A stretch of 64,000 nucleotides of DNA, taken from Pseudomonadota bacterium (GTDB lineage Bacteria > Pseudomonadota > Gammaproteobacteria > Steroidobacterales > JBCBZW01). Position numbers and translations under genes: made by a program. The notes under the pieces were generated by a model. That model did not search any database. It was not told the origin of the DNA and saw nothing but the letters and a program-made list of their open reading frames with translations. Of this stretch, positions 6,088 to 22,481 are shown piece after piece; positions within the stretch are counted from its first letter, which is position 1; the number at the start of each line of letters is the position of its first letter. The stretch is from positions 1 to 64,000 of the forward strand of contig JBCBZW010000018.1 in assembly GCA_039815145.1 (NCBI GenBank). Direction: 5' to 3'.

Positions 6088-7239
6088 CTAGAAGAAGAAC
6101 GAGGCGTACAGCTGCAGGACGTTGGCGTCGAAGCGGTGCAACGGCTCCTCGCCCACGGGCCCTTCCTGGGTGATGTCCCGATAGTTGTCGTAGCGGAAGC
6201 TGAAGCGGTCGTAGTAGACGTTCAGCGAGCCCTTCTCGACGAAGGCGAAGCCGCCTCGCTTCTGACCGAACTCCCAGCTCGCGCCGACGCTCAGAGCGTG
6301 CGCCTGGTAGGTGGAGAGCTCCTTGTCGCGGGCACGGAAGTTGAACTGATCCGCGCGGTCGAAGAGATCGCTGTAGAAGTCCGCAGCACCCTGCGTGTAG
6401 TAGCGATACCCGAAATCCAGCGTTAGGTTCCAGCGCTCCAGCGGGTGCGTGTAGCCGAAGTTCGTGGTGTGGGCGAGGATATTCCAGGTGTCCGTGAAGA
6501 AACGGTACTCGCCGTAGAGGGCGGCGCGGTAGGGCAGGTAGTACTTGGCCCGCACGGCCGCCGCGTTACTCGTGCGCGTGTTCGGGTAGAGCTCCTGCTG
6601 GAAGCTGAAGCCACTGCCCGCATCCGGGTTGCGGAAGCGCACCGAGCGATAGGGGTTATTCAGAAAGCCTTCATCGGTGATGGTCTCGTAGGAGAAGCCG
6701 AGGATGGCGTTCTTGGTCAGCACCTGCGAGAGGCCGAAGCTGTAGCCGTAGCGACGCGTGTTTTCGGAGAAGACGTCGTCGTTTCGCCGCATCACGGTGT
6801 CATCGCCGTAGGTCAGGCCGAGGCTGATCGTGGTGAGATCGCCGAAGAAATCCTGCGACACGCCGAAGTGGTAGTTGTTGGCGAGGTAGTCGTTCTCGTC
6901 GCTTCGCGTGTAGTTGAGGCTGATGAGGGTCTTGCCCGTGAGGAAGTCGATGCCCGCCGAGGTCTGCACGCGCTCTTCCGTGTAGGCGCTGCCCTGGGTC
7001 ACCACGTCGAGGGAAGCGCTCGAGAGGCTGTCGACGTAGTAGTTGCCGCTTACGGACACGTGTTGACCAAAGCCCTTGCGCACGAGCACGGAAGGGCCTG
7101 TCACCTCCACGCCGTCGCCGCTGTAGGCGTGGTACAGCACGTCCGCGCGGTCGTCCGGCAGGATCGCGCTGTTGGCGTTCAGCGCCGCCAAGCCGAGGCT
7201 TGCGCAGGCCAACGCCCCCAGGCGTTTGACGAGGGCCAT
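6088..7239 (-). CDS. DUF3570-family outer-membrane beta-barrel protein
   Basis: The product is 383 residues from the ATG at 7239. A signal peptide (MALVKRLGALACASLG... NSA) is followed by a long series of amphipathic strands and the sequence ends LYASFFF, with a terminal aromatic typical of outer-membrane barrels. The N-terminal LYHAYSGDGVEVTGPSVLVRKG and the later SLNYTRSDENDYLANNYHFG match the DUF3570 family as I recall it. In other genomes DUF3570 genes often sit beside DUF4266 lipoproteins, TlpA-like thioredoxins and the flavin transferase ApbE. Here the first two are present and ApbE is not. An alternative start at 7266 adds nine residues. Role inferred as outer-membrane component of a periplasmic redox or metal system. 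Confidence 0.8.
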   Translation of the reverse strand: MALVKRLGALACASLGLAALNANSAILPDDRADVLYHAYSGDGVEVTGPSVLVRKGFGQHVSVSGNYYVDSLSSASLDVVTQGSAYTEERVQTSAGIDFLTGKTLISLNYTRSDENDYLANNYHFGVSQDFFGDLTTISLGLTYGDDTVMRRNDDVFSENTRRYGYSFGLSQVLTKNAILGFSYETITDEGFLNNPYRSVRFRNPDAGSGFSFQQELYPNTRTSNAAAVRAKYYLPYRAALYGEYRFFTDTWNILAHTTNFGYTHPLERWNLTLDFGYRYYTQGAADFYSDLFDRADQFNFRARDKELSTYQAHALSVGASWEFGQKRGGFAFVEKGSLNVYYDRFSFRYDNYRDITQEGPVGEEPLHRFDANVLQLYASFFF

Positions 7240-7289
7240 ACTCACGAGGGAACTCCCGCTACGCATACAAATAAGCACCGCTTCAGCGA

Positions 7290-7523
7290 TCAGTTGCAGC
7301 CGCAGCCACCGCCGGTAGCACCGGTGGCGCCGCGCGCGCCCTCGCGGGCCTCGTGGACGTGGCCGATGTAGGCGCTGGCGACCGGCGCGCGGTCGAAGGA
7401 CATGATCGGGTCCGCCAGGTGATCGCGCTCGTAGGGCTCCACCCACGGCTTGATGGAGGAGCAAGCGCCGAGGGCCAGGGCGAAGGAGGCGAGGGCAGCT
7501 GCGCGGATCAGTCGGTTGATCAT
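7290..7523 (-). CDS. DUF4266-family small lipoprotein ending GGGCGCN
   Basis: A 77-residue lipoprotein: signal peptide with lipobox ALGAC (Cys21), then SSIKPWVEPYERDHLADPIM, a DUF4266 signature. The C-terminus is glycine-rich and ends GATGGGCGCN, placing two cysteines in a flexible tail. Such a tail could bind a metal or form a redox disulfide that the neighbouring TlpA-like protein acts on. It lies 23-50 bp from the DUF3570 gene and about 73 bp from the thioredoxin gene, all on the minus strand, so an operon is likely. The biochemical role of DUF4266 is not known to me. Confidence 0.82.
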   Translation of the reverse strand: MINRLIRAAALASFALALGACSSIKPWVEPYERDHLADPIMSFDRAPVASAYIGHVHEAREGARGATGATGGGCGCN

Positions 7524-7596
7524 GTCGGGTTCCTCATCGAAGCGCGCCCCGTCCGTTGGTGGCGCGCGATGCCAATTCTTCGAAGGACGGCCGTGC

Positions 7597-8103
7597 TTAC
7601 TCGCGGATCAGCGAGCGCACGAGGTCCTGGTAGGTGTTCTCATCGCCGGGCTTGTAGCCCTTGTGCAGGTGGCGCACGTTACCGTCGCGGTCGACCAGGA
7701 TCGTGCTCGGCATGGCCTTCACCTGGTACATCTTGGTGAGCTGGTTGCTCGGATCGAGGAGCACGGGGAAGCTCACGCTGGTGTCGGCGAGCCAACGCTT
7801 GGCGTCGTCCACATCCTGCTCAACGTTCACGCCCAGGAGCTCGAAACCGAGGGGGTTGTAGCGCTGGTAGAGCGCTTCCAGCAGCGGCATCTCCTGGCGG
7901 CAGGGGCCGCACCAGGAGGCCCAGAAGTTGATCATCACCACCTGGCCGCGCAGCTCGGAGAGGCGCACGTTCTCACCGCCGAGGCTCTTCAGAGTGAAGT
8001 CCGGCGCGGGCTGCCCTTCGTAGGTGGACTTGGTGAGGCCACCGGCGCTGAACAGCAGGCCGAGGGTGAGCAGGGAGCTTGCGGCGAGGGTCTTCAGTTG
8101 CAT
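7597..8103 (-). CDS. TlpA-like periplasmic thioredoxin
   Basis: The 168-residue protein has an N-terminal hydrophobic signal/anchor (residues 1-20) and a thioredoxin fold with the active-site motif WCGPC (Cys65, Cys68) preceded by INFWAS, and the cis-proline loop KAMPSTIL. This is the AhpC/TSA-Redoxin TlpA/ResA group, which reduces disulfides in exported proteins such as apocytochromes or copper chaperones. Given its place beside a lipoprotein with a two-cysteine tail and near many c-type heme proteins, keeping those cysteines reduced is a reasonable inference. It shares the minus-strand cluster 6088-9556. Confidence 0.9.
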   Translation of the reverse strand: MQLKTLAASSLLTLGLLFSAGGLTKSTYEGQPAPDFTLKSLGGENVRLSELRGQVVMINFWASWCGPCRQEMPLLEALYQRYNPLGFELLGVNVEQDVDDAKRWLADTSVSFPVLLDPSNQLTKMYQVKAMPSTILVDRDGNVRHLHKGYKPGDENTYQDLVRSLIRE

Positions 8104-8165: not shown

Positions 8166-8843
8166 TTAGAAAAACACCGTGAAGCCGCCGTGGGCTTCCA
8201 GGTTGGTGGTGGTCTCAGGCTCCCCCAGGATGTCCAGATCGAAGAGGTGACCGCGCGCCGTGGCGTGCAGTGCCAGCCAATCCTTGACGTAGAAGCGATA
8301 GCCCAATCCTGCGCTGATCGTGAAGCGACTGTCGCCCGCGAACTCCGTGCTGCCGGCGCCTGCCGTCAGGTACAGCGATGAGTTGAAGGCGCGTTTCTTG
8401 CCCATGAACACCTCGCCCGGCAGCAGATTGAGGCCGAGCGAGAAGTTGTAATAGGTGAGCTGACGATCGTCCGGCAGCAGCAGCTCCGCGCCACCGCTCA
8501 ACTCCTCGAAGCTCGTGAGGCCCGCCTCTGAGCGGCCGTAGCTCGCCTCGGCGTAGAAGGCCTGGGTCACGTGGTAGGCGGCGCGCACGCCGACCAGGGA
8601 GTTGGTGCCGAAGTCCTCGATGCTCATGATGCCGCCGAAGACACCGATCTCGAAGTTCTCCGTGTCGATCTTGGCCTGGCGGACCTCGCGGGTCTCGATG
8701 TCCGGTTCGAACACGAGCGTTAGCGTTTCCTCATCGCCGTCTTCGGCCTCGGCGTCCTTGTTGCCGCCGCCGAAGATGGCGCAACCGCTCAGGGCGAAGG
8801 CCAGCGTCAGGTTCAGAAGAAGAACGAGAAACCGAGTTTCCAT
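8166..8843 (-). CDS. Outer-membrane beta-barrel lipoprotein
   Basis: 225 residues with lipobox ALSGC, an acidic linker (NKDAEAEDGDEE) and then a beta-rich C-terminal part ending HGGFTVFF, again with a terminal phenylalanine. It resembles the outer membrane beta-barrel domain family often found with TlpA/DUF4266 clusters (TIGR04565-like, from memory). A lipidated barrel is unusual, so the lipobox cysteine may instead be cleaved like a normal signal. Its start overlaps the 3' end of the upstream SH3 gene by 31 bases, implying translational coupling. Function unknown. Confidence 0.72.
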   Translation of the reverse strand: METRFLVLLLNLTLAFALSGCAIFGGGNKDAEAEDGDEETLTLVFEPDIETREVRQAKIDTENFEIGVFGGIMSIEDFGTNSLVGVRAAYHVTQAFYAEASYGRSEAGLTSFEELSGGAELLLPDDRQLTYYNFSLGLNLLPGEVFMGKKRAFNSSLYLTAGAGSTEFAGDSRFTISAGLGYRFYVKDWLALHATARGHLFDLDILGEPETTTNLEAHGGFTVFF

Positions 8844-9556
8844 TCAAAAATCTCCTCGTTCTCTTCGCGCTCGGTGAGCACGACGTAACCGTTGTACTCA
8901 GCTCGGGCCATGAAGCGACGGGTCAGGTAAGCGCGCACGCCGAAGGTAGCGGTGGCGACGGGGTCCGTGCGGTCCTCCACCTGCACCAGGGTGGCGTTGG
9001 GGGAGGTGTTGATCACGCCGGCGCCGATGCCGAAGTACGGCGAGGCGCGCCAGCGCGGGAAAAAGGTGTTCACCATGCGGCCCTGGCCGATCAGGCTGTT
9101 GGAGACTCGCCCGAGGGCCTGCGAGGCCTGAATCTCCAGCGCCAGGTTGGGGCTCAGGGCGAGCGCACCGTAGCCCGTGAGCACGTTGGCGCCGCCGAAA
9201 TCGCCGGTCATGAAGCCCATCTCGAGGCGCCGGTTGCCCAGCTCGTCTAGGCCTGCGTTCTTCAGGATGACCTCATCGCCGTTGGAGAGGATCGTGCGCG
9301 CAAGATCCTCGCGCGAGACCCAGCCGACGTAATCGCGCGCCGTGCGGATCTTGTACCAATCCGTGCGCCGCTTTAGAACTTCGATAGGCTCGCCGCGATC
9401 TGCGATCTGGGTCACAGGATAGCCAGAGTGTGGACCGGTTCGCAGTTCCAGATAGGGATCGGCGACCGTCAGCAGCACGGGTGCTTTGCGCGCCCAGCCG
9501 GCACTGCTCATGAGCACCAGGCATACGGCGATGACAGCGGTTAGCACACGTGACAC
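8813..9556 (-). CDS. SH3-domain / outer-membrane beta-barrel protein
   Basis: A 247-residue exported protein. After the signal peptide (ending AGWARKAP), residues about 25-85 form a bacterial SH3 domain (VADPYLELRTGPHSGYPV... WYKIRTARDYVGWVSREDL). The remainder is beta-strand rich and ends KLGFSFFF, like a barrel. I chose the GTG at 9556 because CGAGG lies five bases upstream and the signal peptide then begins cleanly; an ATG at 9613 would overlap the previous gene by 47 bases and add a poor N-terminus. Bacterial SH3 domains bind peptidoglycan or proteins. It is the first gene of the five-gene envelope cluster, 10 bp after the HzsA-like gene. Confidence 0.75.
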   Translation of the reverse strand: MSRVLTAVIAVCLVLMSSAGWARKAPVLLTVADPYLELRTGPHSGYPVTQIADRGEPIEVLKRRTDWYKIRTARDYVGWVSREDLARTILSNGDEVILKNAGLDELGNRRLEMGFMTGDFGGANVLTGYGALALSPNLALEIQASQALGRVSNSLIGQGRMVNTFFPRWRASPYFGIGAGVINTSPNATLVQVEDRTDPVATATFGVRAYLTRRFMARAEYNGYVVLTEREENEEIFEWKLGFSFFF

Positions 9557-9566
9557 GGCAGCCTCG

Positions 9567-12269
9567 TCAGTCCACGGGGGCAGCAAACGGGTTGTTATAG
9601 TACTGGGCGCCAACGTCTAACCACTCGCTGATGAGTCTCAGTTCTGCAGCGGAGAGATAGCCCTCGTGCACGCCGCCCGGTGCGAACACGGCGAAGAACC
9701 GCGTCGACGCGTTGGCGCCATTCGCCGTTGCCGGGGGCGCCACGTTCTCTGTCGCAAAGATCGGTAAGCCCGTATCCGGGTCGATCCCCACCTGTATCTG
9801 GGCGTCCACTAAAACGCCCGCCACGAGGTCCTGCACGGTGTCGCCAAACAGCAACTCCCGGAATGACTTGAACTGGTCGGCCTCCTGATCGGAAGGACCG
9901 TCGCCTAGATCGAGCTGCGCCGCAGGTACCTGCAGCACACCGGCCGGATCTGCCGGGCTGTGACAGGCGATGCAGGTGTTGTCCTGGATCACGGTCATGT
10001 CCACCTCGTCGAGGATCAGGCGCGGCACGCTCCAGATCGGGTGGATGTGCTCCTCGTAGTTGATGGTCGTGCGGCAGGCTGCGCTCCAGGCCTGCACACA
10101 GGCCTCCAGGGTTGGCGGCGCGGTCTCGAGGTCGGCGTAGCTGAAGGCGAAGCTCGCATCGGCGGCGCGGCCCGCGGCGTCCTCGTCGGTCCACACATCC
10201 TGGTAGACGATGTCGACGCTCGGGCGTAGGGCGTTGCAGTTATCGGTGGCGCAGCTGATCCGCGTGCGCGCCTCGGCCATGGTTTCGCCGAAGTCCGCGA
10301 AGATCTCCGGGTTGGTATTGGGGAAGGGCGCCGAGGTGGTGAGGGCGCCCGGGTTGGCCGGTTCGAAGGCGTCCATGCGCCCGTGGCTCAGGGGGCTGTC
10401 CGGGTCGTGGCAGCCGTTGCATTCCATGATCTCCCCGCCCTGCACGCTGAGCCAGGTGCGATGGGCGCTGCCCACCCGGTGGCCGTCGGCATCGAGCAGG
10501 GAGAGGGAGAAGGCGACGTCGGCTGGCACCATCACGCGCACGGAGCCGTCCGGCTCCACCGGCGCGTAGCCGAGGATCTCGCGGAAGCCGAGGCCACGGT
10601 TGGGGCCGAAGGCGATGTCGGGGATCTCGAAGATGTCCTCGTCGGGGATCGAGACCGCCTTGGTCAGGCGCACGAAGCGTACGGGGCGATCCGCGGCCAT
10701 GCTCAGGGCCGGGTCGGCGAGGGTGGCGATGTCGGCGGTGGCCTCGCCGTCGAAGTCGTAGACGCTGCGGATGTGGATCACGCCCACGCCCTCATCGGCG
10801 AAGGTCTGATCGAACTCCTCGCCCGCATCGCCGGGCAGGATGATGGTGGGCAGGGGACGCGGCTGGGTCGCCACCACGTCCGTGTACATCACGCCTTCCT
10901 CGGGCTGCAGGATCGGCAGCTGCGTGTCCGTCTCCAGGTCGTACAGCCATACGCCGTAGAGCGGCGGGGCCGGGACGGCGTTGGGGTTCTCGAGGTCCGC
11001 CTCGGTGCAGGGGCCGATGCGCGACTCACCCGAGTCCGGGTCCGTGATCGTCAGGCGGCACTGGCTCCAGGTCACGAGCAGGCGATTGGTGCCGTCGAAG
11101 AGGGGGAACACGCTGGAGTAGCGTCCCCCCGGCGAGGGGTCCTGCTCCGTGTCGACCAGGTTGATCGTGGCCGGCACCTGGGCGGGGCCGTTCAGCACCC
11201 CGAGATTCTGCGCCAGGGGCTGGGTGTTCTCGAAGTAGTTGGCGACGTCGATGAGCTGCAGGTCGCCGCCGTAGTTGTTGGTGACGAAGGGGCGGACCAG
11301 GGCGATGATCCGCCCGTCCGGCATCTCCTGCGGCTCGAGGAAGTGGATCTCGCTCTCGTTGGTGCCGGTCATGTGGCTCTCGGCGCCGTAGAGCAGTTCG
11401 ATGCCGCTGCCGTCGGGGCGCATCTTGTAGAGGTGGATGCCCTCGGCGCCGCCGTTGCTGTTGTCCCAGCGGCTGAACACCACCTCGCCGGACTGCAGGA
11501 TGCTGGGGTCCTGGTCGTGGCTCTGGTTGTAGGTCACCTGGGTGAGGTTTGCGCCGTTAGCGTCGATCACGTGCAGCACGAAGGCCGGCTCGTTGCCGTC
11601 TTCATCGAGGGCTTGGAACTGGGGCTTGCCCTCGTCCAGCAGCACGGCGCTGGAGCGGCGCTGGCGGGTTGAGCTGAAGATGATGCGCCCGTCCGGCAGG
11701 TAGGCGGGCGAGATGTCGTGGCCCTGTTCCGCGGTCAGGTCTGAGGAAATCACGCGCGAGAGCGTGTCCGTGAGCAGGTCGTACTGCCAGATGTTCCAGG
11801 TCGGTTGCTCTTCCTCATCAAGATCCGGACGTGGGGGGAAGCGCATGGCGAAGAGCACGGCGTTGCCGTCGAAGGCGAGGGTCAGGTCGCGGATATCGAC
11901 GCCCGGGAACACGAACTCCGGGTCATCCACCAGGGTGGCGTACTCCGCCTCGAGCTCGACCAGGAAGGTCTCCGTGAGGTGGGTTTCCAAGGATGTGGGG
12001 GAGGCGCGATCGCGAAGGAAGAGCTCGGCGCCGCCGGCGAAATCGATCAGCGCGCGCGCATCGAGTTCGATCAGCTCGCCCGCCTCGTCGACGGGGAGGT
12101 CGCGCTTAACATAAGCGATAGGAAAATCGATCACCACCGGGTCCGCTTCCTGCCCCGACCCGAAGCCGATGCCGCCGTCGAGGGGGTTGGTGCTGTCACC
12201 GCCGCTGCAGGCGGCGAGGATGGCGAACATGGGGGCCGTGAGGACCAGCGTCTTCAGCTTGGCTTTCAC
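9567..12269 (-). CDS. HzsA-like diheme lipoprotein with beta-propeller
   Basis: A 900-residue lipoprotein (lipobox ILAAC) from a GTG at 12269 with GGAG seven bases upstream. The N-terminal half carries TolB/PD40-type propeller blades (DISPAYLPDGRIIFSSTRQR, QDPSILQSGEVVFSRWD). The C-terminal half has two c-type heme motifs, CNGCH near residue 618 and CIACH near 764, and resembles the widely distributed 'HzsA-related' proteins that share the middle domain of hydrazine synthase alpha. There are no anammox partners here, so hydrazine synthesis is not implied. It is probably a periplasmic or outer-membrane electron-transfer or oxidative protein. It is divergent from the riboswitch-led cytochrome operon at 13130 and directly precedes the SH3/TlpA cluster. 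Confidence 0.8.
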   Translation of the reverse strand: MKAKLKTLVLTAPMFAILAACSGGDSTNPLDGGIGFGSGQEADPVVIDFPIAYVKRDLPVDEAGELIELDARALIDFAGGAELFLRDRASPTSLETHLTETFLVELEAEYATLVDDPEFVFPGVDIRDLTLAFDGNAVLFAMRFPPRPDLDEEEQPTWNIWQYDLLTDTLSRVISSDLTAEQGHDISPAYLPDGRIIFSSTRQRRSSAVLLDEGKPQFQALDEDGNEPAFVLHVIDANGANLTQVTYNQSHDQDPSILQSGEVVFSRWDNSNGGAEGIHLYKMRPDGSGIELLYGAESHMTGTNESEIHFLEPQEMPDGRIIALVRPFVTNNYGGDLQLIDVANYFENTQPLAQNLGVLNGPAQVPATINLVDTEQDPSPGGRYSSVFPLFDGTNRLLVTWSQCRLTITDPDSGESRIGPCTEADLENPNAVPAPPLYGVWLYDLETDTQLPILQPEEGVMYTDVVATQPRPLPTIILPGDAGEEFDQTFADEGVGVIHIRSVYDFDGEATADIATLADPALSMAADRPVRFVRLTKAVSIPDEDIFEIPDIAFGPNRGLGFREILGYAPVEPDGSVRVMVPADVAFSLSLLDADGHRVGSAHRTWLSVQGGEIMECNGCHDPDSPLSHGRMDAFEPANPGALTTSAPFPNTNPEIFADFGETMAEARTRISCATDNCNALRPSVDIVYQDVWTDEDAAGRAADASFAFSYADLETAPPTLEACVQAWSAACRTTINYEEHIHPIWSVPRLILDEVDMTVIQDNTCIACHSPADPAGVLQVPAAQLDLGDGPSDQEADQFKSFRELLFGDTVQDLVAGVLVDAQIQVGIDPDTGLPIFATENVAPPATANGANASTRFFAVFAPGGVHEGYLSAAELRLISEWLDVGAQYYNNPFAAPVD

Positions 12270-12880
12270 CGTATCGCTCCGTTCGGGTGAGGAGTGGGCT
12301 GCGAGGGGGTGGGTCGGGAACGCCGTTGGAGTACCGGCGGTTGACCTATCCCCTCGCGAGTGGGCAGCGTGAGTGCATTTTGTTGCATGGATTCGCGCGA
12401 TTTCGCGCGGTGCACGCGCCTCGACGACGCTGCCGCTGCGTCGACGTCGAGGATGATGGACAGGGGGGTATCCGCGGTCCGTGATCATGTTCACATCCGT
12501 CCTCCCGTACACGGCCCCGCGACGCTACGACGTGATGGAGATCGCGTGGGCCAGCTGATCAATGTGATGTACATCGAACTTCGGAATCGAAGCGGGCCCT
12601 CGAAGGGGTGTTGTGCTTCTCCCACTGGGGTCCCGAAGACGTGCACGGTTCACGCTCTGCGCATATCGCGCGGGTGCCTTAGAGGCGTAGCTATGAAGGC
12701 GATCAAATCAAAAAGGTGGGGTCTTCCCCAGTCGTCGCGATAATGCGACGTCGCAGCTTGGAGACGTTTGCGAGGCAGGGGATGCTGTGTGGAAATCGTC
12801 TCGCATCCGGGGGCTGCAATCGCTGATGGCGGGCGCTCCCGGGGGGTCGTGTCGAGGAGGGGAAGAAGCCTCGATACGAG

Positions 12881-12975
12881 TTGGATGAACTGTTAATGGC
12901 ATACCCGTCGAAAGGCGGGGACGCAAAGCTACCGGTCTAAGGGCAAGAGGCCTAGGACAGCGGAGTTGCCAGGAA
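12881..12975 (+). promoter_or_regulatory. Cyclic-di-GMP-I (GEMM-I) riboswitch aptamer
   Basis: The GEMM-I core is present in order. GGCATACC (12898-12905) corresponds to the conserved GGCAAACC. CCCGTC-GAAA-GGCGGG (12904-12919) is a six-pair hairpin capped by the docking GAAA tetraloop. GGGACGCAAAGC (12918-12929) is the near-invariant linker. ACCGGTCTAA follows, then the second helix with CCTAGGACAGCGG, and finally GTTGCCA (12965-12971), which closes the base helix. It lies about 160 nt upstream of the cytochrome gene at 13130, on the same strand, in an otherwise gene-free 860-bp region. The ligand-contact base before CATACC appears to be G rather than A, which would favour c-di-GMP over cGAMP; that alignment is from memory. 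Confidence 0.9.
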
Positions 12976-13000
12976 GTCGAGGCCGCTTTGAGCTGGCCTG

Positions 13001-13030
13001 CGGGTTGATCAAAAAATCGCCCGTCTTTCC
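13001..13030 (+). terminator. Candidate expression-platform hairpin of the riboswitch; rest of 12270-13129 has no gene
   Basis: CGGG (13001-13004) and CCCG (13020-13023) close a stem extended by GA/TC and followed by TCTTTCC. A second small hairpin, AGGCC/GGCCT, lies just before it at about 12980-12999. Either could be the ligand-controlled terminator. From 12270 to 12880 I see only leader and promoter sequence for the divergent genes, including a CGCG-rich palindrome near 12390-12410. Confidence 0.35.
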
Positions 13031-13129
13031 TAGCCACGCTCACCGCTTTGCTTGTGCTTCTTCAGCGCTGATCGGCCTGAAGGGCGCGTCCCCAAAAATC
13101 GACAGAACACTAGTCGGACGGTAATCGAA

Positions 13130-14380
13130 ATGAGCGCCAATCCAATAGCGAATATCTCGCGCCTACGCCATGGCGACCGGCAGGATGCTTGCCGATATGG
13201 TCATAGCGATCAAGATACCCGCATTGCACGACGTGTAATCCTCTGGTCCCACTACCTGCTGGTGGGTCTGCTGTTCCTCGGGGTGGTGGCCTACGCCGGC
13301 CCGCGCGAGCAAGCCCAACGTATGCACAACCGCTTGGCCGGCGTGCCGCCGAGTGCCAGTGTGCTGGACGAGATGACCACGTTGATCGCCGAGGGCGACA
13401 CGGCTGCTGCCGCCGAGCTGGCGATGAGCAACGACGCCTTCTACAACGTCACGCTAAAGAACTGGATCTCACCGTGGACCAACGAGGAGCGCGAGGTCTT
13501 CGTGCCCCTCAACGATTACACGGCCACGGTGATCGGCATGATCCGCGACGACGTGCCCTTCAACACCCTGTTCTCCGCCGACATCCTCTACGTGGGCTCG
13601 GGCAACGGCTTGCCGCCGTACTCGATGACCAACAACGATCACTACGAAGAGCTGGAAGCGCGCGGCCTGCCCCTGCAGGACGTGCTCCAGCGCCGCACCC
13701 AGTCCGCGCTCACGGACCTGCCGCCCCAGGGCATCGCCGGCATCTTCACCACGCGCCAGGCGGCGCAGGCCTACTTCATCATGGGCACCAACCGCGCCAT
13801 GTTCCGTTTCATGCTGATGGATCACATGTGCCGTGACCTGGAGCAGGTGCAGGACACCACGCGCACGCCGGACCGCATTCGCCAGGACGTCTCGCGCAGC
13901 CCCGGTGGCGACAGCCGCGTGTTCCTGAACAACTGCGTGAGTTGCCACAGCGGCATGGACCCGATGGCCGGCGCCTTCGCCTACTACGACTACGACGTGG
14001 ACTTAGGGCGCATCATCTACACCCCGAACCAGGTGCAACCGAAGTACTCCCTCAACAACGCCACCTTTGCGCCGGGCTACATCACCACCGACGACAGTTG
14101 GGCCAACTACTGGCGCGAGGGCATCCACGCCTCGATCGGCTGGAGCGCGAACCTGACCGGCAGCGGCAACGGCGCCGCCTCCATGGGCGATGAGCTCGCC
14201 AACTCGCAGGAGTTCGCGTCCTGCCAGGTGCGCAAGGTGTTCCGTAACGTCTGCCTGCGCGATCCGGTCGATGCGGCCGACCGCGGCCAGATCGACACCA
14301 TGGTGTCGGCCTTTCAGACCGACGGATATCGGATGAAGCAGGTGTTCGCGGAATCCGCGGCCTACTGCATGGGCGAGTAA
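13130..14380 (+). CDS. Exported cytochrome c-domain protein, first gene of the riboswitch operon
   Basis: 416 residues from ATG 13130. An unusually long N-terminal stretch precedes one hydrophobic signal or anchor segment (YLLVGLLFLGVVAYAG). One heme-binding motif, CVSCH, occurs in NNCVSCHSGMDPMAGAF, resembling the DUF1588/PSD1-type cytochrome domains. Upstream text such as NWISPWTNEEREVFVPLNDY and MFRFMLMDHMC suggests an alpha-helical DUF1592-like body, but this is uncertain. It is co-directional with, and 13 bp from, the LamG/diheme lipoprotein gene and then a Tat-exported protein. The start is poorly determined; an upstream TTG at 13052 would leave a less likely N-terminus. Inferred role: periplasmic electron transfer under c-di-GMP control. 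Confidence 0.75.
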   Translation: MSANPIANISRLRHGDRQDACRYGHSDQDTRIARRVILWSHYLLVGLLFLGVVAYAGPREQAQRMHNRLAGVPPSASVLDEMTTLIAEGDTAAAAELAMSNDAFYNVTLKNWISPWTNEEREVFVPLNDYTATVIGMIRDDVPFNTLFSADILYVGSGNGLPPYSMTNNDHYEELEARGLPLQDVLQRRTQSALTDLPPQGIAGIFTTRQAAQAYFIMGTNRAMFRFMLMDHMCRDLEQVQDTTRTPDRIRQDVSRSPGGDSRVFLNNCVSCHSGMDPMAGAFAYYDYDVDLGRIIYTPNQVQPKYSLNNATFAPGYITTDDSWANYWREGIHASIGWSANLTGSGNGAASMGDELANSQEFASCQVRKVFRNVCLRDPVDAADRGQIDTMVSAFQTDGYRMKQVFAESAAYCMGE

Positions 14381-14393
14381 GGGAGTCACGACA

Positions 14394-16904
14394 ATGAAAC
14401 ACGAATCGAATCGTCTCGTGCCCGCCTCGCCCTTGCGCGGATTGAGCGCTGTGGCACGGCCGGCAGCATGGTTAGCGACCGCAGCCCTCGCCGTCCTGGC
14501 TGGCTGTGGTGGTGAGAGCACGGTGCCCCTGCCCGTGACCGACATCGGCACCGGCGGTGACGCCGCCTACAACGGTCCGCCGGCAGCCACCCCCGAGGTC
14601 GCGGCCTTCAAGAACCAGGTGTGGGACCCGATCGTGGAGGAGGGCGGCTGTCAGGGCTGTCACTTCACGGGCGGCCAGGCCCCCACCTTCATGCGCAACG
14701 ACGACATCAACCTGGCCTTCGAGGATGCGCGAGCGCTCCTCGACCAGGGCTCGCCCGAGCTGTCCCGCCTGTCCACCAAGGTGGGCGGTGGCCACAACTG
14801 CTGGCTGGCCTCGGATCAGGCCTGTGCCGATCGCATGACCGCCTGGATTGGCCTCTTCGCCTTCGAGGTGGCCGGTGGTGAGGGCCCGAGCGATGGTCGG
14901 GAGATCATCTTGACGCCGCCGCCGATCAAGGACGTGGGTGCGAGCAAGGCCTTCCCGTCGGATCCGGCTCTGTACGCCGCGACCGTGCAGCCGCTGCTGG
15001 TGACCTACTGTTCGGGTTGCCACGCGACGAGCGCGGCACTGGCCCAGTCGCCCTACCTCGGCAACGCCGATCCGGTCACCTCCTACGAGGCGGCCAAGGC
15101 GCGTATCGACCTCAACACCCCCGCCAACTCTCGCCTGGTGCTGCGCCTCGAAGACGAGTTCCACAACTGCTGGGGCGATTGCGTCGCCAATGGCGCCGAG
15201 ATGCAGGCAGCGATCGAAGCCTTCGCCGATCAGATCGATCCGACGGAGGTCGATCCCTCGCTGCTCACCAGCAAGGCCCTCACGCTGTTCGACGGCTCCC
15301 TCGCCAGCGGCGGCAGCCGGGTGGAGAACAACGTGATCGCGCTCTACGAGTTCAAGAGCGGCCAGGGCAACACGGCCTTCGACACCAGCGGTGTATCGCC
15401 CGCCCTCGATCTCACCATCAGCGGTGACTTCGACTGGGTCGGCGGCTTCGGCATCGACCTGCGCAGCGGCAAGGCCCAGGGCTCCACCACCAACAGCTCC
15501 AAGCTCCACGAGCTCATCACCCAGACCGGTGAGTACTCGATCGAAGCGTGGGTGGTGCCGGCCAACGTGACCCAGGAAGAAGCGCGCATCGTCAGCTACT
15601 CGGCGGGCGTGTTCCAGCGCAACTTCACCCTGTCGCAGACCCTCTACAGCTACGACGCCTTCAACCGTTCCAGCGTCACCGACGCCAACGGCGAGCCCGT
15701 GCTGACCACCTTCGCTGACGACGAGGATCTGCAGGCCACCCTGCAGCACGTGGTGGTGACCTACGACGCGCTCCTCGGCCGCCGCATCTACGTGAACGGC
15801 GTGTTCACCGACGACTTCGACGCCGGTGGCGGCAGCCTCGCCGACTGGGACGACACCTACGCTTTCGTACTGGGTAACGAGGTATCCAACGACCGTGCCT
15901 TCTCCGGCGTCATCCGCCTGGTGGCGATCCACAACCGCGTGCTCACCCAGGAGCAGATCCAGCGCAACTTCGATGCCGGCGTCGGCGAGAAGTTCTTCCT
16001 GCTCTTCAACGTGGCGGACCTGGTGGAGCTGCCGGCGGCCTACGTGATGTTCGAAGTCAGCCGCTTCGATAGCTACAGCTATCTCTTCGAGGAGCCGCGC
16101 TTCATCAGCCTGGACACCTCGGTGATCCCCGACAACATCCCCTTGGAGGGTATGCGCATCGGGGTGAACGGCGGCGAGCCGACCGTGGGTCAGGCCTACG
16201 CCAACCTGGATGTGATGCTGAACACCGCCAACTACGATCCCGCCGAGGGGCAGTTCCTGTCCACCATCGGCACCATCGTGGCTCTCGATCAGGGACCGGA
16301 CGCGGATGAGTTCTTCCTCACCTTCGATCGCATCGGCAACAACGAGAACGTGCGCACGGACGATGCCGCCCTCGCCCCGCCGCCCGCGGTGGACGGTGAG
16401 GAGACGCCGGACATCGGCATCCGCACCTTCGCCGAGATCAACGCCACCATGGAGGCGGTGACCGGCGTGGACAGCCAGAGCGAGTCGGTGCGTACCACCT
16501 ACGACCTGATTCGCCAGCAGCTGCCCACGGTGGACGCGCTGGGCGGCTTCCTGTCCTCGCAGCAGATCGCGGTGGCCCAGCTCGCCATCGAGTACTGCAA
16601 CACCCTGGTGGACGACACGGGCGCTCGCGGCAGCTACTTCCCGGGCTTCAACTTCGGTGAAGCACCGAACGCGGCCTTCGGCAATGCGGCGCAGCGGGAT
16701 CTGGTGATCGATCCACTGCTCGCCAACATGATGGGCGATGGGGTGGGTACCCAGCCGGTGCCGGCAGACGTGCGCGATGAGCTGAATGCACTCATCGATC
16801 GTCTGACCACCTGCGGCAACGCGTGCCCCGCCGACAAGACCGGCACCATCGTCAAGGCCGTGTGCTCCAGCGTGCTCGGCAGCGCTGTGACCCTGGTCCA
16901 GTGA
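14394..16904 (+). CDS. LamG-domain lipoprotein with two c-type heme modules
   Basis: 836 residues. A signal peptide with lipobox VLAGC leads into two consecutive heme modules of about 90 residues: CQGCH (near residue 86) trailed by GGGHNCWLASDQAC, and CSGCH (near 205) trailed by EFHNCWGDCVANGAEMQAAI. Residues about 310-540 form a LamG/concanavalin A-like domain (NVIALYEFKSGQGNTAFDTS ... YSIEAWVVPANVTQEE ... RRIYVNGVFTDDF). The remaining 300 residues are unassigned but contain a possible third helical region. LamG domains bind carbohydrates or proteins, so this may link substrate binding to electron transfer on the outer surface. Middle gene of the riboswitch operon, 31 bp before the Tat protein gene. 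Confidence 0.85.
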   Translation: MKHESNRLVPASPLRGLSAVARPAAWLATAALAVLAGCGGESTVPLPVTDIGTGGDAAYNGPPAATPEVAAFKNQVWDPIVEEGGCQGCHFTGGQAPTFMRNDDINLAFEDARALLDQGSPELSRLSTKVGGGHNCWLASDQACADRMTAWIGLFAFEVAGGEGPSDGREIILTPPPIKDVGASKAFPSDPALYAATVQPLLVTYCSGCHATSAALAQSPYLGNADPVTSYEAAKARIDLNTPANSRLVLRLEDEFHNCWGDCVANGAEMQAAIEAFADQIDPTEVDPSLLTSKALTLFDGSLASGGSRVENNVIALYEFKSGQGNTAFDTSGVSPALDLTISGDFDWVGGFGIDLRSGKAQGSTTNSSKLHELITQTGEYSIEAWVVPANVTQEEARIVSYSAGVFQRNFTLSQTLYSYDAFNRSSVTDANGEPVLTTFADDEDLQATLQHVVVTYDALLGRRIYVNGVFTDDFDAGGGSLADWDDTYAFVLGNEVSNDRAFSGVIRLVAIHNRVLTQEQIQRNFDAGVGEKFFLLFNVADLVELPAAYVMFEVSRFDSYSYLFEEPRFISLDTSVIPDNIPLEGMRIGVNGGEPTVGQAYANLDVMLNTANYDPAEGQFLSTIGTIVALDQGPDADEFFLTFDRIGNNENVRTDDAALAPPPAVDGEETPDIGIRTFAEINATMEAVTGVDSQSESVRTTYDLIRQQLPTVDALGGFLSSQQIAVAQLAIEYCNTLVDDTGARGSYFPGFNFGEAPNAAFGNAAQRDLVIDPLLANMMGDGVGTQPVPADVRDELNALIDRLTTCGNACPADKTGTIVKAVCSSVLGSAVTLVQ

Positions 16905-16935
16905 CCCGATAACAAGATTTACGAGGAATACTGAC

Positions 16936-18528
16936 ATGTCACGCAAGATCAACTATGCAGACACGCGCCAGCCCTTGTTGCATCCGGATCACCCGCGGCC
17001 GGTCACCCGTCGTGAGTTCATCAGCGCGGGCTTGATGAACGGGGCGGGGCTCGCTTTCGGTTCCACCCTGTTCGGCCTCTTCGGTAACCCGAAGATGGCC
17101 CGCGCAGCGCTCTCCGATGACCTGGAGACGTTGCGTCAGAGCTGCGGCATCGCCGTGCAGGGCGCGGGCAAGATCCCCTTCATGTGCTTCGACCTCGCCG
17201 GTGGCTGCAACGTCGCCGCGTCGAACGTGCTGGTGGGCGGGCCCGGTGGGCAGTACGACTTCCTGAGCACCGAGGGCTACGCACGCCTCGGCCTGCCCGG
17301 GGACATGATCCCGCCCGTGGCCAACCCGCAGACGGGAACCAACGACTTCATCAACACGGACATGGGCATCGCCTTCCACTCCGATAGCGCGTTCCTGCGC
17401 GGGATCCTGGAGAAGGCATCGCCTGGCACCCTGGCCAACGTGCACGGGGCCGTGATTCCGGCGCGTTCGGAGAACGACACGGGCAACAACCCGCACAACC
17501 CCATGTACGGCATCTTCCGTGCCGGCGCGGACGGCGAACTGCTCACCCTGATCGGCTCGCGCAACAGCGATTCCGGTGGTCGCTCCGTGGCGCCCATGGA
17601 GCTGATGGACCCGAGCGTGCGCCCCACCAAGGTAGATCGCCCCAGCGATGTGACCGGTCTGGTCGATACGGGCAAGCTCGTGGGCCTGCTCGACCAGGGC
17701 GATGCCGTCGCCGTGATGGAGTCCATTCAGCGCATCAGCGACATGAAGCTCGGCCAGGTGGACACACGGATCACCGCCGACGACGTCCTCAAGGACCTCG
17801 TCCGCTGTGGGTACGTGAAGTCCGCAGACCTAGCGGATCGCTTCGGTGATCCCTCCACCCTGAACCCCGAGATTGACCCCGATATCGTCGGCCCCACAGG
17901 GATCTTCACGGAGGAGGAGCTGAACGACAACGACATCCGCAAGACTGCCTCGGTGATGAAGCTCGTGATCAACGGCTTCGCCGGTGCCGGCACGGTGGAG
18001 ATGGGCGGCTACGACTACCACGGCGGTCGCCGCGCCCGTGGTGAGGAACGTGACCTCGAGGCGGGGCGCTGCATGGGGGCGACCCTCGAGTACGCGGCCC
18101 GCATCGGCGTGCCCCTGATGCTGTACGTGTTCAGTGACGGCTCCGTTTCCGCCAACAGCAACATCGACAACTCGCCCGAAGGTCGCGGCAAGTTCGAGTG
18201 GCAGTCGGACAACCAGTCCACCGCCGCCTCGTTCTTCCTGGTCTACGACCCGAACGGCCGGCCGAGCCCCTTCACCGGCGACTCCCTGGGGCCGGAACGG
18301 CATATTCAGATCGGTCACTTCCGACCGGATGGGTCGGTGGAGGCCTCGAGTACGCCGGCGGCCAACAACGTCAACCTGCTGGTGCAGACCGTGATCCTCA
18401 ACTACATGGCCTTGCACGGGGAGCAGAACCGCTTCTCCGAGATCCTGCCGGCGCACGGCTTGGGCAGCGTCGCCCTACGCGATAGCCTCACGGCCTTCGA
18501 TCCCATAGTGAACGGAACGATTGGCTGA
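16936..18528 (+). CDS. Tat-exported DUF1501-like protein
   Basis: 530 residues with a twin-arginine signal: VTRREFISAGLMNGAGLAFG, meaning it is folded in the cytoplasm before export. The body has glycine-rich loops (FDLAGGCNVAASNVLVGGPG), a HSDSAFLRGILEKASPGTL segment and MGGYDYHGGRRARGEERD, which recall DUF1501 proteins (alkaline-phosphatase-superfamily-like) that pair with DUF1592/PSD1 cytochromes in other bacteria. The match is by layout rather than by a clear motif; homologues have also been mislabelled as GspF in databases, as I recall. It is the third gene of the operon begun at 13130. AGGAA stands nine bases before the ATG. Confidence 0.65.
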   Translation: MSRKINYADTRQPLLHPDHPRPVTRREFISAGLMNGAGLAFGSTLFGLFGNPKMARAALSDDLETLRQSCGIAVQGAGKIPFMCFDLAGGCNVAASNVLVGGPGGQYDFLSTEGYARLGLPGDMIPPVANPQTGTNDFINTDMGIAFHSDSAFLRGILEKASPGTLANVHGAVIPARSENDTGNNPHNPMYGIFRAGADGELLTLIGSRNSDSGGRSVAPMELMDPSVRPTKVDRPSDVTGLVDTGKLVGLLDQGDAVAVMESIQRISDMKLGQVDTRITADDVLKDLVRCGYVKSADLADRFGDPSTLNPEIDPDIVGPTGIFTEEELNDNDIRKTASVMKLVINGFAGAGTVEMGGYDYHGGRRARGEERDLEAGRCMGATLEYAARIGVPLMLYVFSDGSVSANSNIDNSPEGRGKFEWQSDNQSTAASFFLVYDPNGRPSPFTGDSLGPERHIQIGHFRPDGSVEASSTPAANNVNLLVQTVILNYMALHGEQNRFSEILPAHGLGSVALRDSLTAFDPIVNGTIG

Positions 18529-18550
18529 GCGATGCCTCGCTAGGACACCG

Positions 18551-19486
18551 GTGACGGTGTTACCCCCACGGCGCCGTGACGAGCCTCGTCGCGGCGCCGT
18601 CGTCGCGCCTACTTCGGGTACGATTCAGCGCCTGCCGGCAGTCCCCGCACCCGCCGTGCGTGTGCGGGCGATCGAAGCGGGCCAGGTGCTGGTGCTCGAG
18701 CGCCCGCCAGAGGCCTTTTCCGGTCTGCTGCGCCGAGCGAGCGAGCTGGTCGACGATGCCTTCGCCCTCGAGGGGCCTGCTGCACTCGCGCACTGCCTGC
18801 CGGCGGAGGTCTTCGCCGCGCGCGGCCGCATCCTTCAGCGGCGCTTCGCCGGCGACGCGACGGCACGCGACGCCTTCTGGCAAACGGCCAGCGCCCTGCA
18901 GATGGGCGATGGCGTTTTCCGCGATCAACTCTTCTTGCGTGTGCTGCCGCCGCAGGCGAGCGGCCACGGCGGCTTCCCACCCCTGCATCCCCACCGCGAC
19001 ACCTGGGGCTCGCGGGTCATGTGCCAGGAGAATTGGTGGGCCCCCGTGTCGCCCGTGTCACGTCTGAACACGTTGGGCCTGTACCTGCAGCACTGGCAGC
19101 AGCCGGTGGAGAACGAGTCCGACACCTGGTCCTTCGAGGACTATCGAGCCCATCGCCAGGCTGCAGGCGGTCAGGGGCGGTCGGTGGCTTACCCCTCGGC
19201 GCCGCGGGCCAAGTTACCGCCGCCGGCTCAGGAGGCGACCCCGCTGGAGCTGCCCGTGGGTCATCTGGCCTTGTTTTCCGGGGCGCAGCTGCACGTCTCC
19301 CTGCCCAATCACAGCGGCGTCACGCGCTTCAGCGTGGAGACCCGCACCGTTCGCTTGGAGCGCGGCGGGCGGCTGGCGCCGGGGCCGCGCAACGTTGACA
19401 CGGCCGAGCGCCCGCCGTACCTCACCTGGTTTCGCGATCGCCGCGGTACCACCCTTGCCGAGGCCCTGGACGCGTACGGCAGCTGA
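18551..19486 (+). CDS. PhyH-like Fe(II)/2-oxoglutarate oxygenase-type protein
   Basis: 311 residues from the GTG at 18551, which has AGGA about six bases upstream. The facial-triad pattern is visible: HRD in FPPLHPHRDTWGS (HxD) and a distal His in LFSGAQLHVSLPNHSG followed by Arg in VTRFSVETRTV, which would bind 2-oxoglutarate. The MCQENWWAPVSPV stretch after the HxD resembles PhyH-like proteins of marine bacteria. Substrate unknown; no signal peptide is apparent, so it is cytoplasmic. An upstream TTG at 18521 would overlap the preceding gene. It follows the Tat protein gene by 22 bp and could be the fourth gene of the riboswitch operon. Confidence 0.7.
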   Translation: MTVLPPRRRDEPRRGAVVAPTSGTIQRLPAVPAPAVRVRAIEAGQVLVLERPPEAFSGLLRRASELVDDAFALEGPAALAHCLPAEVFAARGRILQRRFAGDATARDAFWQTASALQMGDGVFRDQLFLRVLPPQASGHGGFPPLHPHRDTWGSRVMCQENWWAPVSPVSRLNTLGLYLQHWQQPVENESDTWSFEDYRAHRQAAGGQGRSVAYPSAPRAKLPPPAQEATPLELPVGHLALFSGAQLHVSLPNHSGVTRFSVETRTVRLERGGRLAPGPRNVDTAERPPYLTWFRDRRGTTLAEALDAYGS

Positions 19487-19513
19487 TCGCGCGAGCGACT
19501 ACAATGCCGGCCC

Positions 19514-20575
19514 ATGATGATCAGAGTTTCCGCCCGCGCAGCGCTCGCCTGCGCCGTTCTCATCGCCGCGGTGCTGAGCGGATGTGCGAAGGCGCCGCCG
19601 CCGCGCGATCTCGCCGATGCCCGCTTGCTCAGCATCTCCCTGGCGGCCGCGCCTGACCACGGCGTCGTATCGCTGGCGGCCGATGCGTCGGCGGGGGATG
19701 AGCAGTGGCTCTACCGGGCCCCCGCGGGCAGCGAGATTCGCCAGCTCACCGTGGCCCGGGACGAGTCGTTCCTCATCTACAGCTACGTGCCACCGCCGGC
19801 GGGCGACGCGCGCCTGTTCGACCGCAGCGCCTTGTACCGGGTGGATCTCACGGCCCCCGAGTGGTCCGCCCAGCCCCTGCTCGGCGGGGACACGCCCGGC
19901 GAGTACCTGCTGGAGCCCGCCCTGTCGCCGGACGGGCGCTACTGCTACCACGTGCGCGTGGCCGCCTCGGACGATGCGATCAACGCCTACTCGGACGTGA
20001 CCTTGCGTCGCCTCGACCTGCGCACGGGCGAGGTGCAGGACATCATCGCCAACGGCATCTGGCCCACCGTGTCCCCCGACGGGCGCAAGATCGCCTTCGT
20101 CGGCGTGCAGCCCCTGTCCCAGCAGCGCGGCCTGTTTGTGGCTAACGTCGACGGTAGCAAGCTCGAGATGTTGGTGCCCGTGGGCAAGTTCTTCGATGTG
20201 GACGCACCCGCGTTCACCCCCGACGGCAAGCACCTGGTGTTCGCCGTGGCGGAGGAGGACACGCGCGTGCCGGCAGGGCAGCGGGGTGGCCTGTCGTCCC
20301 TCCTGTGGCGATTGCTGCCGATCGGTGAGGCGCAGGCGCACAACGACCACGATGTGGCGTCGGACTGGTGGCGCGTCCCCGTTGCTGGGGGTGAGCCTGA
20401 ACGCCTCACCGAGCAGGCACAGATCATGAGCTACGGCGCTTTCGCGGGCGGTGATGGCACCTTCGCCTACGCCACCACCAATGGCATCTACCTGACGGAT
20501 CTGTCAGGGGAAGCGCCTGTGGCGGTGCGGTCTGAGGGCGTGTGGATGAGTGTGGCATGGCTGGGAGGGCGTTGA
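19514..20575 (+). CDS. TolB-like beta-propeller lipoprotein
   Basis: 353 residues with lipobox VLSGC. Repeated propeller blades carry the WD40-like/PD40 signature: EPALSPDGRYCYHV, WPTVSPDGRKIAFV and APAFTPDGKHLVFA. It ends in a short blade (VWMSVAWLGGR). Such proteins act as periplasmic scaffolds; enzymatic activity is not expected. Two adjacent ATGs (19514 and 19517) are equally possible starts. The gene is 2 bp upstream of the FixH/YtkA-like lipoprotein gene, which itself overlaps the MauG-like peroxidase gene, so these three are probably co-transcribed and work together. Confidence 0.8.
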   Translation: MMIRVSARAALACAVLIAAVLSGCAKAPPPRDLADARLLSISLAAAPDHGVVSLAADASAGDEQWLYRAPAGSEIRQLTVARDESFLIYSYVPPPAGDARLFDRSALYRVDLTAPEWSAQPLLGGDTPGEYLLEPALSPDGRYCYHVRVAASDDAINAYSDVTLRRLDLRTGEVQDIIANGIWPTVSPDGRKIAFVGVQPLSQQRGLFVANVDGSKLEMLVPVGKFFDVDAPAFTPDGKHLVFAVAEEDTRVPAGQRGGLSSLLWRLLPIGEAQAHNDHDVASDWWRVPVAGGEPERLTEQAQIMSYGAFAGGDGTFAYATTNGIYLTDLSGEAPVAVRSEGVWMSVAWLGGR

Positions 20576-20577
20576 AG

Positions 20578-21195
20578 ATGACGTCGAGAGGATCGTGGTA
20601 TCTCGCCGCGTCGTCGGCGCTGCTGCTCAGCGCCTGCGGGCCCGCGCCGAGCGAACCGGAAGCGCAAGCGCAGACCGCTGACCATGCGCACCATGAGCAC
20701 ATGGGGGGTGACGGCGATGCCGAGGTGCGCGCCATGCTCGAAGGCGCTAGCGTCGCCTCCGCCCAATCCACGCCCTCCGCCTGGCGCGCTCTGCGGGCCG
20801 AGGTGGCGGCAGGGCGCATCAGCCTCGACGATGACGGCATTCCGCAGAGCCTGGACCCGGTGGCGAGCAAGCTCACCGAGGGCGGGCATTTCCGCATCAG
20901 CCTCCAGGCGCCGCCTGAAGGGCCGCAGATCAATCGCCTGCTCACCTACACGATCGCTGTGGACGATCCCGAGGGCACGCCCGTGGAGGGCGCGCAGCTC
21001 GATTTCGTCGGTGGCATGCCCCTGCACGATCACGGCTTTCCCACCTCACCGGCGATCGGCGCGCCGGTGGCTCCCGGCCGCTACCCGCTCGAAGGGCTGC
21101 GCTTCGGCATGAAGGGCTGGTGGCAGCTGGTCCTGTCGGTGCAGGCGGGGCAGGTGACCGACACGGTGACCTTCGACATCGCCGTCGAGCCTTGA
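20578..21195 (+). CDS. FixH/YtkA-like lipoprotein
   Basis: 205 residues, lipobox LLSAC, then a His-rich stretch (DHAHHEHMGG) that could bind copper or another metal. The C-terminal half has an Ig-like fold reminiscent of FixH/YtkA domains: FRISLQAPPEG, NRLLTYTIAVDDPEGTPVEGAQLDF, GMPLHDHGFPTSP, GLRFGMKGWWQLVLSV. The HDHG motif is typical of this group. YtkA-like proteins are often linked to copper handling or oxidase assembly. GGGAGGG sits about eight bases before the ATG. The stop codon overlaps the TTG start of the next gene (TTGA), so translation is coupled to the diheme peroxidase. Confidence 0.75.
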   Translation: MTSRGSWYLAASSALLLSACGPAPSEPEAQAQTADHAHHEHMGGDGDAEVRAMLEGASVASAQSTPSAWRALRAEVAAGRISLDDDGIPQSLDPVASKLTEGGHFRISLQAPPEGPQINRLLTYTIAVDDPEGTPVEGAQLDFVGGMPLHDHGFPTSPAIGAPVAPGRYPLEGLRFGMKGWWQLVLSVQAGQVTDTVTFDIAVEP

Positions 21196-22481
21196 ATCGT
21201 TGCCACGCGCTGGGCGCCCTGGCGGCGCTGGCGCTGCTCGCGGTTGGGCCAGCGGCGAGTGCGAACGACGCCGCCGAGGCGCCTTGGAGTGTTGCCGAAC
21301 GCTCGCTGCTCGCGAGCCTCAGCCTCCTGCCGTCCCCCAGCTTGCCGGTCCCACCGAGCCCTTCGAACGCCCTGGCCGATTCTCCAGCAGCAGCTGCTCT
21401 CGGCGAGCGTCTGTTCTTCGACACCCGTCTGAGTGCCAACGGCGAGGTCTCCTGCGCCAACTGCCATCAACCGACCCACGCCTTCGCCGACAGCACCGCC
21501 CGTTCCCGCGGCCTCAGCCTCACCGGTCGCAACGCGCCGACCGTGCTCGGCGGGGCTTACCAACGCTGGCTCTACTGGGATGGGCGTCGGGACAGCCTCT
21601 GGGCCCAGGCGCTCACGCCGATCGAACACCCGGATGAGCAAGGGCTCGGCCGCGTGGCCGTGCTCGCCGTGCTCGCCGAGGACCCCACCTATCGCGAGGC
21701 CTGGGTCGACCTCTTCGACGAAGCACCCCTCGATGTGTCCGACGCGGAGCGTTTCCCGCTCCACGCCACACCGCGCGCGGACGCACCTGCCCTCGCCGCC
21801 TGGCAGCAGATGGCCTCGGATGATCGGGCGCGTGTGGATGCCGCCTTCGCGCGCGTGGGGAAGGCGATCGCCGCGTACGAGCGCACCCTGCTGCCCGCGC
21901 CGTCGCGCTTCGATCGCTTCGTCGCCGCCCTGCTGGCGGGAGATGTCACTGGAGGGGGATACCTCAGCGACGAGGAGCAGGCGGGCCTAAGGCTATTCAT
22001 CGGTGATCGCGCCCAGTGCACCCAGTGTCACAACGGGCCCATGTTCAGTAACGGCGGCTTTCACAACATCGGCCTGATCGCACGCACCGCCACGGCCGAC
22101 ACCGCAGATCTGGGCCGCGCCGCGGCCGTGCGCGAGGTGCGCGAGGATCCCTTCAACTGTCTCGGCCCGCACAGCGATGCGGCCCCCGCGGACTGCGCCG
22201 AGCTGCGCTTCATGAAGGCCCGTGGTGCGGACCTGTTGGGGGCGTTTCGCGTGCCCACCTTGCGCAACGTGGCGCGCACGGCGCCCTACATGCACGACGG
22301 CCGCTTCGCTGACCTCGCCGCTGTGCTCGCCCACTACGTGGCCGCGCCCACCCAGGTGCTCGGCCACCAGGAGCTCGACCCGCTACGCCTGGACGCGGAG
22401 GAGCTCGCCGCCCTGATCGCGTTTCTCCACGCCCTGAGCGGGGAGAGCCTCGACGACGGCGTGGCCGCGCTGACCCCCTGA
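21192..22481 (+). CDS. MauG/cytochrome c peroxidase-family diheme protein
   Basis: 429 residues from a TTG start inside the previous stop (TTGA overlap). After the signal peptide (ends ASAND), the first heme motif is CANCH (residues 88-92, followed by QPTHAFAD) and the second is CTQCH (276-280, followed by NGPMFSNGGFHN). The bacterial diheme peroxidase layout is complete: LGERLFFDTRLSANG before heme 1 and VPTLRNVARTAPYMHDGRF near the end. Members reduce peroxide or, as in MauG, oxidise a partner protein. The translationally coupled His-rich lipoprotein is a candidate partner. Confidence 0.92.
   Translation: MNRCHALGALAALALLAVGPAASANDAAEAPWSVAERSLLASLSLLPSPSLPVPPSPSNALADSPAAAALGERLFFDTRLSANGEVSCANCHQPTHAFADSTARSRGLSLTGRNAPTVLGGAYQRWLYWDGRRDSLWAQALTPIEHPDEQGLGRVAVLAVLAEDPTYREAWVDLFDEAPLDVSDAERFPLHATPRADAPALAAWQQMASDDRARVDAAFARVGKAIAAYERTLLPAPSRFDRFVAALLAGDVTGGGYLSDEEQAGLRLFIGDRAQCTQCHNGPMFSNGGFHNIGLIARTATADTADLGRAAAVREVREDPFNCLGPHSDAAPADCAELRFMKARGADLLGAFRVPTLRNVARTAPYMHDGRFADLAAVLAHYVAAPTQVLGHQELDPLRLDAEELAALIAFLHALSGESLDDGVAALTP

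Follow-up and report, generated by a model that had tools for sequence, protein, structure and literature searches.

A full-length c-di-GMP-I (GEMM-I) aptamer stands in the 5′ leader of an operon encoding exported heme, LamG and twin-arginine (Tat) proteins (genes A, B and C) in the window (the whole 64-kb stretch of DNA analysed here), and it is very probably a genuine riboswitch through which c-di-GMP sets the amounts of these proteins, in a regulated unit that possibly spans genes A-G (Table 1). A comparison with the RF01051 covariance model, proposed in an earlier note written from the letters of the window, gave a significant match at 12888-12973 on the forward strand, covering model positions 1-87 of 87 with 81.4 bits against a gathering cut-off of 35 bits (E 1.8e-14 for the 64 kb against 4227 Rfam families; E 2.9e-16 when a 1-kb region was scanned alone). 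This was the sole Rfam match above cut-off across the whole 64-kb window, and the scan of the 1-kb region gave no other credible RNA family in the leader upstream of gene A. A covariance model built from 27 GEMM-I elements of the order (R1) scored the same element at 96.1 bits. The note had described a near-complete aptamer some 160 nt upstream of the gene at 13130, on the same strand and in an 860-bp gap without a credible gene; each part of that description held, with a full-length aptamer, a distance of 156 nt from its end to the ATG of gene A, and an 860-nt intergenic region (12270-13129) with no conserved ORF.

The consensus helices of the aptamer form, with 21 of the 22 pairs that have both positions present being standard. 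We took Vc2 residue 20 to correspond to Rfam column 11 and assigned the ligand contacts from knowledge of the Vc2 structure; with this mapping, the alignments show a conserved ligand-contact core, comprising G20 (the G at 12898, the c-di-GMP form), the ACGCAAAGC linker with A47 and the CC that ends P1. The element shares with RF01051 members the linker GGGACGCAAAGC, the GAAA-capped P2, G20 and the closing GCC strand, and it is reported as RF01051 rather than as c-di-GMP-I-GGC (RF03167). It differs from known RF01051 riboswitches only in the operon regulated, together with an expression platform that fits no recognised terminator or ribosome-site design. The riboswitch is real and of a known class, while its target is new. 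The 6.0-Mb genome (295 contigs) has just two GEMM-I elements; the other (G000:C1:25771-25855, equivalent to L150:9772-9856) stands ahead of a lipoprotein-like ORF, starting near L150:9992, whose large secreted product is rich in Gly and Asp.

Table 1 Features of the riboswitch-led operon and its divergent partner (window positions).
Feature	Position	Strand	Basis
c-di-GMP-I (GEMM-I) aptamer	12888-12973	+	Rfam RF01051, R1, conserved in sister G008
Rest of leader, candidate expression platform	12974-13129	+	Sister alignment, folding, terminator scan; mechanism inferred
Gene A: one CxxCH (CVSCH), N-terminal membrane anchor or signal, PSD2/DUF1585-like C-terminus	13130-14380	+	Pfam
Gene B: lipoprotein-like, two CxxCH, LamG_3	14394-16904	+	PF13385, CxxCH scan
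Gene C: twin-arginine exported protein, no Pfam family	16936-18528	+	Signal, Pfam search
Genes D-G: D, PD40, YtkA-like, MauG/MbnH-like di-heme	18521-22481	+	Pfam
HZS-alpha middle domain/PD40, lipoprotein-like, two CxxCH; first gene of divergent operon	9567-12269	-	PF18582 5.1e-15
SH3/OMP protein, divergent operon	8813-9613	-	Pfam
Beta-barrel-like protein, divergent operon	8166-8843	-	
TlpA/AhpC-TSA thioredoxin-like, divergent operon	7597-8103	-	PF00578 5.8e-34
DUF4266 small protein ending CxC, divergent operon	7290-7523	-	PF14086 7.4e-22; ORF
DUF3570, divergent operon	6088-7284	-	PF12094 1.7e-38

The heme, LamG and Tat composition that the earlier note had proposed for 13130-18528 was confirmed by one CxxCH in A, two in B alongside LamG_3 (PF13385, 8.2e-20) and a lipobox, and the twin-arginine signal of C. 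Gene A is conserved in an alignment of 22 sequences (A5), and its PSD2 match (1.9e-5, 24.8 bits) falls slightly below the Pfam cut-off of 25.8 bits; the predicted structure of its protein (pLDDT 72.8) had no PDB match below E 2. Protein C gave no Pfam match, including to DUF1501 or DUF1552, in 29 members, save a weak unrelated one in two. Foldseek matches to its modest model (pLDDT 63.8) were nearly all to the alkaline phosphatase superfamily (best E 3e-3, low TM-scores), suggesting a weak resemblance to that fold. In Planctomycetes and myxobacteria, PSD/PSCyt heme proteins pair with Tat-exported DUF1501/DUF1552 proteins. The PSD2-like end and CVSCH of A, and the Tat signal and weakly alkaline-phosphatase-like fold of C, recall these pairs, but C matches neither DUF in Pfam and the likeness is one of resemblance only. 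Genes D-G follow C in this genus only, among the fetched loci. Because these genes overlap or are separated by short gaps, and no strong terminator intervenes, the transcript may extend to them, and A-B-C and D-G are possibly co-transcribed. This set (18521-22481) may represent a copper- or peptide-modification set behind the same leader. Elsewhere in the window, a subtilisin-like protease (3017-5014) carries about nine tandem GYTWSQ repeats at its C-terminus.

A-B-C is divergent from an operon encoding HZS-alpha-like, SH3/OMP, OMP, TlpA, DUF4266 and DUF3570 proteins, and tblastn over the fetched loci indicates that the pair is conserved across Gammaproteobacteria; in 119 of these loci, a count that includes duplicates, the HZS-alpha-like gene adjoins A. 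Meheust et al. (2021; PMC8238504) reported flavinylated extracytosolic redox clusters combining DUF3570, thioredoxin-like, DUF4266 and ApbE proteins, and DUF3570 is a shown ApbE flavinylation substrate. The window's divergent operon matches these clusters in that its TlpA/thioredoxin-like, DUF4266 (with the CxC end) and DUF3570 genes stand together and in order at 6088-8103. It differs from them in its association with A-B-C, the HZS-alpha-like protein and riboswitch control, all absent from the main text of that paper, which likewise makes no mention of riboswitches, LamG or hydrazine. A tblastn search of the window gave no ApbE homologue; contig C70 of the genome has an ApbE-like ORF, identified by eye, beside COIL-TPR genes with no riboswitch there, and ApbE follows in the loci of many relatives. 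A-B-C is thus one half of a conserved divergent locus, the other being the DUF3570/DUF4266/TlpA operon, and a role for this locus in electron transfer outside the cytoplasm is plausible. The intergenic regions between A and the HZS-alpha-like gene in many families (e.g. L174, L072 and L145) also contain a conserved 21-nt element, TACCGTTAACGCGATCACAAA (other strand TTTGTGATCGCGTTAACGGTA), which probably serves the HZS-alpha operon as a promoter or as a regulator site.

In the order, 66 of 147 genomes encode protein C, and so do at least 580 stretches of DNA from GTDB genomes; nearly all of the best 80 carry gammaproteobacterial titles. None of 80 GTDB loci, 68 of them with both A and an HZS-alpha-like gene, had an R1 match within 8 kb of C. 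Because most relatives thus lack the aptamer before A (0 of the 68 GTDB leaders), c-di-GMP control is not essential to A-B-C. Among about 70 leaders examined, the aptamer occurs upstream of A only in family f1, which comprises the window genome and one other genome, the sister G008 (2/2 genomes), and in family f7. The f7 copies, in three genomes from genera other than the window's (R1 scores of 45.9 bits in G128, 32.7 bits in G089 and 27.4 bits in G152, with a weak fourth of 13.2 bits in G149), are divergent GEMM-I elements at the same position upstream of A; that of G128 scores 40.8 bits in Rfam, above the cut-off. They keep G20 and the ACGCA core, with longer P2 and P3 loops and different paired sequences. 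The riboswitch in front of A is, on this distribution, a sporadic lineage-specific addition.

In G128, G089 and G152 the aptamer lies between a perfect sigma-54 promoter (TGGCAC-N5-TTGC) and the start codon. Such perfect promoters precede A in f7 leaders (among L168, L170-L177, L179-L182, L192, L193 and L215-L284): 15 of 16 leaders have one in a first set, as do 63 of the 70 f7 sequences fetched for a larger one. A sigma-54 promoter for A in the window was rejected, the best candidate scoring 12/15 against a shuffle mean of 11.75 and not being conserved in the sister genome. The sequence TGTCTCAAAAGCACGACAG in f7 leaders was considered as a partial aptamer and proved instead to be a motif resembling an inverted repeat, located a long way upstream of the sigma-54 promoter; motifs of this type are more likely regulator sites and could be activator sites. 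An R1 match of 21.9 bits inside gene A of G106 is coding sequence and was taken as chance, and a loose regular-expression search of the leaders returned mostly chance matches and was not used.

A second point of attachment was observed in 12 genomes of families f4 and f15, in which a riboswitch lies beyond the divergent operon, directly before genes for TlpA2, a small coiled-coil-like protein (COIL) and a TPR protein. The four of these riboswitches checked in Rfam all score as c-di-GMP-I-GGC (RF03167). In G001 and G030 (family f2) the TPR genes are located elsewhere and are also behind a riboswitch. No riboswitch was found at the TPR genes of the window genome, G008, G128 or G089; genomes checked at both places have a riboswitch on A-B-C, on TlpA2-COIL-TPR or on neither, and never on both. 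A tentative reading, to which we give a little less than an even chance, is that a single gammaproteobacterial flavin/heme locus acquired c-di-GMP riboswitches on more than one occasion and on alternative operons (A-B-C in f1 and some f7 genomes; TlpA2-COIL-TPR in f2, f4 and f15), making the locus a c-di-GMP-governed extracytoplasmic electron-transfer machine for attached cells; in that reading, it is the lack of any checked genome with both attachments that argues for the locus as the governed unit. The repeated, alternative attachment is new, and is suggestive, rather than proof, of something beyond shared ancestry.

The recurrence could also be coincidental, with GEMM-I elements, typically 2-10 per genome in the order, lying near many genes. 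Such elements occur in 53 of 53 scanned genomes with protein C and also in 38 of 80 without it, a comparison weakened because the genomes are related, and the relatedness of the families means that the matches are not independent. Coincidence is nonetheless unlikely: all 12 of the 12 f4/f15 neighbourhood matches sit right before TlpA2-COIL-TPR, those before A lie at one and the same spot in two families, and at about 5 elements per 3.5 Mb one would be expected within any particular 20-kb stretch in roughly 3% of genomes. Some riboswitches of the TlpA2-COIL-TPR type (among them L143:16792-16877, L144:12800-12896 and L147:15993-16083) end in GCT or GCA, not GCC; the ligand-pairing C92 may therefore be changed in these, and their ligand preference could differ. 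The neighbourhood in L143 also contains a cobalamin riboswitch (L143:14413-14632), 2.2 kb ahead of the c-di-GMP element.

The sister genome keeps the aptamer, a near-identical distance to gene A, and the genes. Aligning the two leaders shows only a few differences from G008 across the 86 aptamer positions, against drift and indels in the sequence on either side. Those indels break the frame of an extension from a TTG at 13052, ruling out this alternative start and leaving 13130 as the likely start of gene A. Downstream of the aptamer, a hairpin at approximately 12996-13024, read by eye from the alignment, keeps its pairing in G008 despite changes, and a 19-nt block, CTAGCCACGCTCACCGCTT (13030-13048), is identical in the two genomes. 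In predicted ligand-free folds this block pairs into aptamer strands, and the energy needed to force the aptamer fold is 3 kcal/mol in one genome and 14 kcal/mol in the other, with the predicted anti-aptamer pairing differing in detail between them. The predicted pairing suggests an anti-aptamer switch. A terminator-like hairpin followed by TTTTT lies at 12717-12730 on the reverse strand, within sequence that is well conserved in G008.

The terminator scan of the leader found no intrinsic terminator after the aptamer, folding revealed no evident sequestered ribosome site there, and the leader taken as a whole shows no unusual stability (z -1.1), all of which, along with the absence of the element before most homologous operons, would suit a decayed or orphan element, or one serving a short independent transcript, that exerts no control over A-B-C. 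Such an origin is highly improbable in view of the preservation of the aptamer between drifting flanks in G008, its recurrence at the matching place upstream of A in f7, and its same-strand, 156-nt spacing to A. For a riboswitch controlling A-B-C, the conserved downstream block would pair into the aptamer without ligand, and c-di-GMP binding would free or block the downstream leader, acting on transcription or translation as either an ON or an OFF switch. A-B-C would then work with the divergent operon in extracytoplasmic electron transfer in surface-attached cells, and the attached-versus-motile switch would control the A-B-C operon, as the earlier note had supposed.

Because G20 is kept, c-di-GMP rather than cGAMP is expected as the ligand. 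Least probable of the alternatives is a real aptamer that senses 3′,3′-cGAMP (GEMM-Ib type), as do many GEMM-I RNAs of Geobacter, including 12 of 17 in G. sulfurreducens (PMC8835794), since the discriminating position 20, the site of the G20A change examined in work on cGAMP binding by class I GEMM RNA (PMC6274999), is G and not A in the window, the sister genome and the f7 copies. The GEMM-Ib elements of Geobacter share the aptamer family and are linked there to extracellular electron transfer genes; they differ from the window element in having A in place of G at position 20 and in the genes that they accompany. The comparison with Geobacter cytochrome control drawn in the earlier note stands as an analogy and fails as kinship, the relatives of the window locus being gammaproteobacterial.

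The A-B-C operon and its divergent partner are widespread in Gammaproteobacteria and, as far as could be found, unstudied; our search of the literature on LamG or ApbE with c-di-GMP riboswitches returned nothing relevant. The riboswitch provides a first testable signal for when A-B-C and its partner operon are used. If, in several lineages, c-di-GMP does act through different operons to govern the flavin/heme locus, attached life would be tied to a new extracytoplasmic electron-transfer system, and such a link would fall outside the Geobacter cases known so far.
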